Positions 4,570 to 6,521 of a stretch of DNA of 64,000 nt are shown piece by piece. A program made the translations under genes and the position numbers. Each line of letters starts with the position of its first letter. The first letter of the stretch is position 1. The notes under the pieces are model-generated. The model was not told the origin of the DNA. It saw only the letters and a program-made list of their open reading frames with translations, and ran no database searches. The DNA comes from Pedococcus sp. 5OH_020 (GTDB lineage: Bacteria; Actinomycetota; Actinomycetes; Actinomycetales; Dermatophilaceae), in NCBI RefSeq assembly GCF_027812955.1, contig NZ_JAPYZV010000004.1:124001-188000 (forward strand), read 5' to 3'.

Positions 4570-6036
4570 CTACCAGGGTCGGGCGGGCGTGCTGTCGCGC
4601 GGGTCGTCCGCGAGCACCCAGCCGTCCGGCGTCCGGGTGTAGTCGCCGCGCGGTCCGTGCTCCGCGAGCTCGGCGACAGCACTGAGCAGCCGGTCGACGT
4701 GCTCGGCCGTGTTCGCCAGTCCGACGCTCGCGCGGACGGCGGTGCGCGGCGCCGGCCGCGCCGCGTCATCGCTGTGGTCAGAGTCGTCGTCGTCCTCGCT
4801 GTCCAAGGTGTCCAAGGGGTCCAAGGCGTCCTCGAGGAGAGCGTCCACGCACAGGTGCGCGCAGAACTTGCCGTCGCGCACCCCGATCCCATACTCCGCG
4901 GACAGGGCCGTCGAGACGAGCGAGGAGTCGAGGCCCTCGATCGTGAAGGTGGCCACGGCGACCCGCTCGTGGTCGGGTGAGAACAGGGAGTACGTCTCGA
5001 CGCCCTCGATGGCTGCCAAGCCTCGGGCCAGGGTGCCTCCAAGCGTCGCCTCGTGCTCCTCGACAGCCTCAGCGTGCGTGCGCAGCGCGCTGCACGCCGC
5101 GGCCAGGGCGATGGCTCCGATGACGTTCGGGCTACCGGCCTCGTGCCGGGCGGCGCCGTCCTGCCAGACCACGCCCGCCTCCGTCACGGAGCGGGTCGCA
5201 CCGCCCCCGGCGAGGTAGGGCGCTGCCGCGTCGAGCCAGTCACGTCGGCCCACGAGGACGCCGGTGCCGAAGGGTGCATAGAGCTTGTGTCCGGACAGGA
5301 CGGCGTAGTCCACGCCGAGCTCGGCGAGGTCGAGCGGCCGGTGCGGTGCGTACTGCGCCGCGTCGAGCACCACCCGAGCGCCGTGCCGGCGGGCGATGGA
5401 CGCCAGCTCGCGCACCGGCCAGATCTCGCCGGTGACGTTCGACGCGCCGGCCAGTACGACGAGCTTGTGCCGTGCGTGGTCCGAGCGCAGGGCCGCCCGC
5501 AGCAGCGCCTGCGCGTCACGCACCGACCCTGGGACAGGCAGCCGGTGGGTGCGGGCGGCGGCCCACGGAAGCAGCGCGGCGTGGTGCTCGGTCTCGAACA
5601 CGAACACGCTCGTCTGCCGGGGCACTGCCCTCGCCAGCAGGTTGAAGGAGTCGGTGCTGTTGCGCGTGAAGACGACCTCATCGTCGGGGCGGGCGCCCAC
5701 GAAGGTCCTGACCTCCTCGCGCGCCTCCTCGTACCAGGCGGTTGTCACTCGGGAGGCATACCCGTTGCCGCGGTGGACCGAGGAGTAGGTGCGCAGCGCC
5801 GTGTCGACGGCCCGCTTGACCGACAGGAGCGCCGGGGTGGAGGCGGCGTGGTCGAAGTTGGCGTAGTCCACGGTGCCGGTGAGGGTGGGCACGGACAGCC
5901 CGGCTGACACGACGGCCGGTAGCGCCGACCCCGTCCCGGGGGTGCCCAGCGGGGGGACTGCTCGCAGGTGATCGCGCGCCTGGGCCAGCGGAGCGGTCCG
6001 CCGCGAAGGGGTGGGAGGTGTGCTGGCGATGGACAT
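4570..6036 (-). CDS. PLP-dependent class V aminotransferase (cysteine-desulfurase-like)
   Basis: Fold-type I PLP enzyme of the class V / cysteine desulfurase group, 488 residues. The cofactor lysine is Lys251 in LSGHKLYAPFG, with the preceding VLDAAQYAPH providing the PLP aspartate, and THHAALLPW-like residues upstream. Cys392 (KFCAHLC) sits where desulfurases carry their sulfur-accepting cysteine, but the surrounding sequence is not the SufS/IscS loop. An acidic insert rich in Asp/Ser (SEDDDDSDHSDD) follows at about residues 410-425 and is encoded by short DNA repeats. A SAM-IV riboswitch lies upstream and an AGGAG 8 nt before the ATG. The riboswitch implies a role in sulfur amino acid metabolism; the exact reaction is unknown. 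Confidence 0.85.
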   Translation of the reverse strand: MSIASTPPTPSRRTAPLAQARDHLRAVPPLGTPGTGSALPAVVSAGLSVPTLTGTVDYANFDHAASTPALLSVKRAVDTALRTYSSVHRGNGYASRVTTAWYEEAREEVRTFVGARPDDEVVFTRNSTDSFNLLARAVPRQTSVFVFETEHHAALLPWAAARTHRLPVPGSVRDAQALLRAALRSDHARHKLVVLAGASNVTGEIWPVRELASIARRHGARVVLDAAQYAPHRPLDLAELGVDYAVLSGHKLYAPFGTGVLVGRRDWLDAAAPYLAGGGATRSVTEAGVVWQDGAARHEAGSPNVIGAIALAAACSALRTHAEAVEEHEATLGGTLARGLAAIEGVETYSLFSPDHERVAVATFTIEGLDSSLVSTALSAEYGIGVRDGKFCAHLCVDALLEDALDPLDTLDSEDDDDSDHSDDAARPAPRTAVRASVGLANTAEHVDRLLSAVAELAEHGPRGDYTRTPDGWVLADDPRDSTPARPW

Positions 6037-6074
6037 CTGAGGCGCTCCTGGGTCCGGTGGGACCTACGGGGCTC

Positions 6075-6192
6075 GCAGGTCCGCGCTTGCCGGCTGCGGG
6101 TGCAGCCGACCCGGTCGTCACCCGGAGCACCCCACCGCGGAAGGAGGGTTGCTGGCCAGCAAGCCGGGGCTGTGCGCTGGCACTCATGACCT
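6075..6192 (-). ncRNA. SAM-IV riboswitch
   Basis: On the minus strand the leader of the aminotransferase gene contains the SAM-IV core: GGTCATGAGTGCCAGCG, then CCCCGGCTTGCTGGCC, AGCAACCCTCC, CGCGGTGGGGTGC and CCGGGTGACGACC, followed by a P4-like hairpin (CGGCTGC...GCAGCCGG) and the GGCAAGCGCGGACC pseudoknot strand. The order and spacing match the actinobacterial SAM-IV family as I know it. The aptamer ends 39 nt before the ATG, and the segment between contains a GGACCT/AGGTCC pairing and the Shine-Dalgarno, so SAM probably represses expression through the ribosome site or early termination. Confidence 0.88.
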
Positions 6193-6200
6193 GAGCCAGC

Positions 6201-6206
6201 ACAGTA
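6201..6206 (-). promoter_or_regulatory. Candidate -10 for the SAM-IV leader transcript
   Basis: TACTGT on the minus strand 9 nt before the riboswitch core puts a transcription start just upstream of the aptamer. No convincing -35 is visible. Confidence 0.35.
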
Positions 6207-6515
6207 GTGACCGGTCGCCCGTCGATCCAGCAGACGGTGGGTCATTTCCGGCATCTGAGACGCCGGCCGTGGCGGCTGTCTGGTCAGGACGTCTGGTTGG
6301 TCTGTCTGCGCCTGTGCCGACGACCCCGTGGGGCCGTCGGCACAGGCCCCCGCCAGACGCGTTACTACTGTGGCACTGGTCGGGCGGCGGAAGGCGGCAA
6401 CGGCGTGCGCAGGGCCGAACTCCAGGGATGGATTGCCCGTTCGGTGGAGGCCTTACCTGGCGATATCACCCGTCCTGCGACGCGTGTGACGAGTGTGTCC
6501 ACTGTGACTTTCGCG
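6207..6515. other. Noncoding divergent region upstream of ftsK
   Basis: About 300 nt separate the SAM-IV promoter from the ftsK promoter. No convincing coding frame is present. The region holds a strong perfect hairpin (6310-6347) and repeated GTCTGG/GTCTG words around 6270-6310. Confidence 0.5.
6310..6347. terminator. Perfect 13-bp inverted repeat with structured loop
   Basis: GCCTGTGCCGACG and its exact complement CGTCGGCACAGGC flank 12 nt that themselves contain CCCC/GGGG. A further GTCTG/CAGAC pair (6304-6308 and 6354-6358) can extend the stem. It sits about 180 nt before ftsK and 110 nt behind the SAM-IV promoter, with no converging genes. It could be a terminator insulating ftsK, a protein-binding site or part of a small RNA; the role is unknown. 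Confidence 0.5.
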
Positions 6516-6521
6516 TAACGT
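6516..6521 (+). promoter_or_regulatory. -10 element of leaderless ftsK promoter
   Basis: TAACGT followed by 7 nt and the ATG at 6529. This favours that ATG over the in-frame GTG at 6520, which would lie inside the -10 element. Confidence 0.5.

Follow-up and report, generated by a model that had tools for sequence, protein, structure and literature searches.

The pairing of a SAM-IV riboswitch with a gene for a class V PLP enzyme is already published for two Streptomyces. In S. lividans, SAM-IV lies before SLIV_26975, listed as 'cysteine desulfurase (thiamine metabolism)', and an S-box before a 'threonine biosynthesis' pair (PMC8079986), whilst in S. clavuligerus a premature transcript with a predicted SAM-IV was found before a class V PLP gene, CRV15_21540 (PMC8269248). 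Both genes carry a desulfurase or class V annotation and a predicted SAM-IV leader with RNA-seq support; judged by annotation and riboswitch, SLIV_26975 is probably an ortholog of the gene studied here, and we infer the same for CRV15_21540. The accessible parts of both papers list the pairing only, and a literature search found no study of the function of the enzyme. New here are the boundary of the family, its spread, its partners and the proposal of a sulfur donor for homocysteine.

MetM and MetO reportedly make up an O-phosphohomoserine route to homocysteine. In this route (Hasebe 2024, as cited in PMC12172450), the homocysteine step is under SAM-riboswitch control in Streptomyces and the carrier needs a sulfur donor; a desulfurase as that donor is the hypothesis of the present analysis. 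The accessible parts of the citing literature name no enzyme lifting sulfur from cysteine for MetO, and Hasebe 2024 may name one. The gene was analysed within the window, that is, the whole stretch of 64,000 nucleotides, and we consider it probable that its product is a cysteine desulfurase, repressed by SAM, which supplies sulfane sulfur for homocysteine synthesis.

A SAM-IV riboswitch in the leader of the gene

The only Rfam match at gathering level within the 64-kb window was SAM-IV, on the reverse strand directly ahead of the gene (Table 1). The first-pass annotation had recognised this riboswitch by its conserved segments, and the covariance search agreed, with RF00634 aligned over its full length (model positions 1-116 of 116; E 2.6e-20, cut-off 38 bits). 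The range proposed for gene and leader, 4570-6206, does hold both, with the aptamer match stopping at 6191. The identity of the riboswitch is well supported: the aptamer is an ordinary, well-conserved SAM-IV, like others of RF00634 in its full-length match, its place before a sulfur-metabolism gene and its actinobacterial host, and without notable difference from them.

Table 1. Features of the gene and its leader; positions are those of the window, position 1 being its first letter.
Feature	Position	Strand	Remark
Class V PLP enzyme, 488 aa, SufS-like cysteine desulfurase family	4570..6036	-	Stop codon included
Acidic insert, about residues 405-425	4762..4824	-	Between Cys392 and Arg435; mostly low pLDDT
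Cys392 codon (RDGxFCAH)	4861..4863	-	Equivalent of SufS catalytic cysteine by alignment
Lys251 codon, expected PLP lysine (SGHK)	5284..5286	-	Invariant in 40/40 rows
Shine-Dalgarno AGGAG	6045..6049	-	Read from sequence; present in relatives' leaders too
Leader hairpin GGTCC-CACC-GGACC	6051..6064	-	Directly before Shine-Dalgarno; candidate expression platform
SAM-IV riboswitch aptamer (RF00634)	6078..6191	-	5' end at 6191; cmscan 114 bits

Between the end of the aptamer and the start of the ORF at 6036 there are 41 nt, and the hairpin that they hold falls outside the Rfam model. A stem of at least five pairs ending no more than 8 nt from the Shine-Dalgarno motif was present in 73 of the 89 usable leaders, whereas mononucleotide shuffling predicted 29.7; 21 of 110 leaders had been dropped because they had no usable start, leader or Shine-Dalgarno motif. 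No intrinsic (U-tract) terminator and no sigma-70 promoter was detected in 5900-6520; for S. clavuligerus, premature termination has been reported (PMC8269248, in the part available). Our guess is that the switch in the leader of the window acts on translation. By analogy with known SAM riboswitches on methionine genes, SAM would lower expression through this leader. In the minimum-energy fold of the ligand-free leader, calculated with a model that includes neither pseudoknot nor ligand, the Shine-Dalgarno region was paired with the aptamer, and therefore off-switching by SAM is not fitted by that fold alone.

Active site of the 488-aa protein

The class V assignment of the first-pass annotation was confirmed by Pfam, in which the 488-aa protein matched Aminotran_5 (PF00266) with 263.7 bits. 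Every NCBIfam model listed for it was below its cut-off, including those of EgtE, IscS, CsdA, VC1184 and EF2568, the best being SufS TIGR01979 with 251.8 of 475.1 bits. The enzyme had been called unassigned, which holds for these models but not for the probable ortholog of S. lividans, labelled a desulfurase in the accessible part of its source (PMC8079986). In the AlphaFold model (pLDDT 86.5, pTM 0.85), the 50 PDB matches listed were SufS-type desulfurases, the first of them SufS of M. tuberculosis.

Among 40 aligned homologs, His151, His152, Asp225, Gln228, Lys251, Arg387, Cys392 and Arg435 were invariant, and Cys392 was a cysteine in all of the 80 named homologs, a count made without pre-selection for cysteine. 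A cysteine near the usual desulfurase position had been noted from the sequence; the residue is indeed there, but 'near' understates the case, as Cys392 aligns with the catalytic cysteine of SufS chains. The accompanying claim that a SufS-type loop was missing did not stand, because the segment from Cys392 to Arg435 exists and is longer than its SufS counterpart, with an insert of low confidence (pLDDT below 50 at residues 407-413 and 415-422). An active site of the desulfurase type is well supported, and the enzyme most likely strips sulfur from cysteine.

Distribution in actinobacteria

An ortholog search of 58 genomes, own genome included, gave 33 close orthologs, set off by a gap in E-value from 1e-91 to 1e-45. 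SAM-IV was found just upstream of the gene in all 30 best loci of the genus and its relatives, again with the own genome included; the three close orthologs outside these loci comprise one with SAM-IV (G040), one without (G055) and one that was left out (G043). SAM-IV preceded the homolog at 74 of 80 named loci, which were taken from public genomes of Terrabacter, Kribbella, Amycolatopsis, Lentzea, Actinomadura, Nonomuraea, Streptomyces and others. In a phylum-wide draw of 396 genomes, a family member was present in 26 (at least 479 bits; next match 270), and SAM-IV was found at 21 of the 25 family loci that are left without the genome of the window. These sets of 30, 80 and 25 loci overlap in part. 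At the six named and four sampled loci lacking SAM-IV, no other Rfam match was obtained at E-values up to 0.5.

The g50 genomes of the draw are Streptomyces-like, their best matches having 82-90% DNA identity to named Streptomyces loci. All 11 of them carried SAM-IV at the family gene, and in nine it was the only SAM-IV found in the genome. Model R1 was made from the 30 ortholog leaders and three others with an RNAalifold structure that differs from the published one; its training members recur in three of the 80 named loci (L036, L037 and L055, equal to L017, L021 and L026) and its training genomes in two of the 25 sampled loci (L116 and L117, from the genomes of L010 and L032). As the same pairing of riboswitch and gene is widespread in actinobacteria, the enzyme is suggested to be a sulfur supplier for methionine synthesis.

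Two loci showed riboswitches of other classes. A c-di-AMP riboswitch (46 bits) was located downstream of the desulfurase gene at L027:3064-3225 (+). In G106, a SAM-I match of 60.7 bits lies beside the desulfurase gene and faces away from it (L283:2438-3969, -), leading a gene for a 2OG-Fe(II) oxygenase-like protein and, below cut-off, a weak match to cyclodipeptide synthase.

Genomic context

In the window, the ORFs flanking the enzyme gene are RNase J-like and FtsK-like, judged by eye. Elsewhere, two congeneric genomes have a gene for a small rhodanese immediately after a member under SAM-IV control, and in one of them the rhodanese matched PF00581 with 39 bits. A two-domain rhodanese (92.6 bits) is encoded close to a riboswitch-less member in S. 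noursei, and a homolog of this rhodanese likewise near riboswitch-less members in S. achromogenes and S. eurythermus; no ThiS-family carrier was found near the S. noursei cluster, where none of the five matches was located. In Streptomyces sp. ISL-100 (L078), the neighbours of a riboswitch-less member of 455 aa are a 379-aa protein with ThiF and rhodanese parts, a 338-aa ketosynthase III and a 291-aa LuxR-type regulator.

In their order, the L078 genes agree with pau29-pau32 of the paulomycin cluster (349, 380, 455 and 290 aa), and their lengths are nearly identical. There, according to the accessible text, the 455-aa Pau31 is annotated as a cysteine desulfurase and adjoins a ThiF/MoeZ-like protein, and the authors propose that sulfur passes from the desulfurase to the ThiF protein and on to a carrier (PMC4425429). 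Pau31 belongs to secondary metabolism and the L078 copy has no SAM-IV; the likeness is one of order, lengths and annotation.

Taken together, the rhodanese and ThiF neighbours suggest a protein acceptor, which we would place among proteins of these kinds. Against this counts that rhodanese neighbours occur in few loci, mostly beside riboswitch-less members, in a phmmer search that started from three single sequences (two rhodaneses and one ThiF-rhodanese protein) and may have missed distant ones. Clustering of neighbours over the 80 loci gave no operon partner, the largest non-self cluster reaching only 22 of 80 and shadow frames accounting for several clusters. Some frames were wrongly picked by the codon-bias gene caller, which was applied to one set of seven loci and one of nine.

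Two further loci are recorded here for their gene content. L082:1135-6927 (+) appears to be a cluster of a two-domain rhodanese, an SDR, a riboswitch-less desulfurase, a luciferase-like ORF (by eye) and a berberine-bridge oxidase, with homologs of its rhodanese in L080 and L081. In G331, the desulfurase gene is closely followed by an ORF of 144 aa (L288:4486-4917, +), which had no Pfam match at E 0.001.

Co-regulation with homocysteine synthesis

The genome of the window holds five copies of SAM-IV, placed at the family gene, metY, metX, ssuE and a tyrosine recombinase. The metY product scored 648.6 bits (cut-off 495.1), that of metX was above cut-off in two of three MetX models, and that of ssuE, which has its SAM-IV about 260 nt before it, scored 182.4 bits (cut-off 164); an SsuA-like protein found with ssuE is truncated and below cut-off. 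These neighbours in regulation uphold the earlier view that SAM control ties the enzyme to the supply of sulfur amino acids, and the regulon points to methionine.

Two SAM-IV copies lead genes of other kinds. The recombinase (341 aa; Phage_integrase 89.9 bits) follows a SAM-IV of 82.9 bits by 46 nt (G000:C22:189041-189151; L005:1501-1611, +), and a SAM riboswitch on an integrase would be unusual. In the relative G019, SAM-IV lies upstream of an NlpA-type lipoprotein gene (PF03180), likely serving methionine uptake, and of an ABC transporter ATPase identified by eye (L272:2-1779, -).

The co-occurrence of genes was followed in a panel of 61 genomes, 34 with the gene and 27 without, which was hand-picked and whose proportions are no estimate for the phylum. 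MetY was missing in 11 of the 61, and 10 of these 11 had a MetM-like protein (>430 bits), which was also present in three of the 50 genomes with MetY. In all nine g50 genomes of the panel, SAM-I precedes a MetM-like gene and a MetO-like gene adjoins it, both being named by fold, riboswitch and neighbour rather than by comparison with the published sequences. The desulfurase thus shares SAM control with a homocysteine synthase both in the genome of the window and in the g50 genomes. However, MetY or MetM was present in 34/34 genomes with the gene and also in 26/27 without it, and this near-equal presence means that shared SAM control is no proof of a role in methionine synthesis. Outside g50, four panel genomes have a MetM-like protein, and two of these (G258 and G268) have no family gene, which also counts against the proposal. 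In the genome of the window, neither a MetM match at E 1e-40 nor a close MetO (best MetO-like match 25.9 bits) was found. MetY is usually taken to work with free sulfide, so that this genome has no obvious need of a sulfane donor, which again counts against the proposal.

The alternative that survives best is a cysteine desulfhydrase that releases free sulfide from cysteine for MetY to join to O-acetylhomoserine, with no protein acceptor. Such an enzyme would agree with SAM-IV at both metY and metX in the same genome, with MetY in 25 of the 34 panel genomes that have the gene, and with the relative G030, where metY and the family gene fall within 3 kb of sequence on one strand; the loss of the SufU-exchange histidine, described below, would also suit an enzyme without partner. 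In contrast, eight of the nine g50 panel genomes have the gene without MetY, and the presence of rhodanese and ThiF neighbours speaks for a protein acceptor. A link with missing sulfate assimilation was sought in the panel and the reverse was found: an APS-reductase match (E 1e-40) was present in 32/34 genomes with the gene and in 17/27 without it (Fisher p 0.0033, with a hand-picked panel, phylogeny ignored and only 9/61 genomes above the curated cut-off). Therefore, most genomes with the gene should make sulfide from sulfate, which argues against a desulfhydrase, and we regard this alternative as unlikely.

Comparison with SufS

With SufS (group II) the family has in common the fold, the PLP lysine, the PLP-stacking histidine, the substrate arginines and the catalytic cysteine. 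In contrast, the motif around the cysteine is mostly RDGxFCAH in the family and RxGHHCA(W/Q/M)P in SufS rows, and GGGA and RHE of the family correspond to GGS and RFE of most SufS rows. In the tree, 24 picked family rows were split with support 99/98 from 14 outgroup rows, which were 13 SufS-like rows and one IscS-like long branch. The best SufS E-value among the 40 aligned members was 1.1e-81, and from this none of them is expected to reach the TIGR01979 cut-off.

His342 of B. subtilis SufS is the histidine that exchanges zinc with SufU. At the corresponding column, a histidine was present in 0/24 family rows and in 12/13 SufS-like rows, the latter including two identical pairs and one row without it (L144). 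Four of the 24 family rows, all from Streptomyces, have a histidine shifted one column past this position, so a SufU-like partner is possible there.

These four rows, and the SufS-type desulfurases that are the nearest solved relatives, would suit a second SufS, devoted to iron-sulfur cluster assembly or tRNA thiolation and with SAM control merely incidental. This is nevertheless improbable, as the genome already has its own SufS-like (RVGHHCAWPL) and IscS-like proteins, the family is separate from the SufS rows and far below the SufS cut-off, and the co-regulated genes are those of methionine and sulfur assimilation. A role in the methionine cycle as a C-S lyase or aminotransferase, such as cystathionine beta-lyase or the final transaminase of methionine salvage, would be in keeping with a class V fold under SAM control to which no curated model assigns a function, but by known chemistry these reactions do not need the invariant cysteine, and it is the least probable of the three.

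Replacement of a cystathionine beta-lyase was considered separately and rejected: PatB-type matches above 225 bits, only one of the 61 panel genomes having one above the curated cut-off, were found in 24/34 genomes with the gene and in 19/27 without it, and frequencies so similar give no sign of replacement.

Discussion

Three things carry most of the case for a desulfurase role, namely the active site, the regulon and the gene neighbours. In the scheme that we favour, where we infer which way SAM switches the gene, what reaction is catalysed, which protein accepts the sulfur and what the sulfur is used for, the PLP enzyme would convert L-cysteine to alanine and leave a persulfide on Cys392. 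The sulfane sulfur would then pass to a rhodanese-type acceptor, which could be a rhodanese proper or such a domain within a MoeZ-like ThiF protein, and would end in homocysteine, by way of MetM and the carrier MetO in Streptomyces and of MetY in the family of the window. Homocysteine would in turn give methionine and SAM. When plentiful, SAM would bind the SAM-IV leader and expression would fall, whereas under scarcity the desulfurase would be made together with the products of the other SAM-riboswitch genes.

A wider reading, which we hold as possible and with less confidence than the role itself, is that of an actinobacterial family of cysteine desulfurases, separate from both SufS and IscS and dedicated to methionine, that is governed by the SAM riboswitch and charges a rhodanese/MoeZ relay and a sulfur carrier for homocysteine synthesis, copies without the riboswitch having been recruited for antibiotics such as paulomycin. 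In Streptomyces and other actinobacteria, both methionine and sulfur-containing antibiotics are reached through sulfur-carrier routes, and the conserved riboswitch singles out a candidate gene for the donor that would bring sulfur from cysteine to MetO. If this is true, the labels 'SufS family' and 'thiamine metabolism' on such genes would be corrected.
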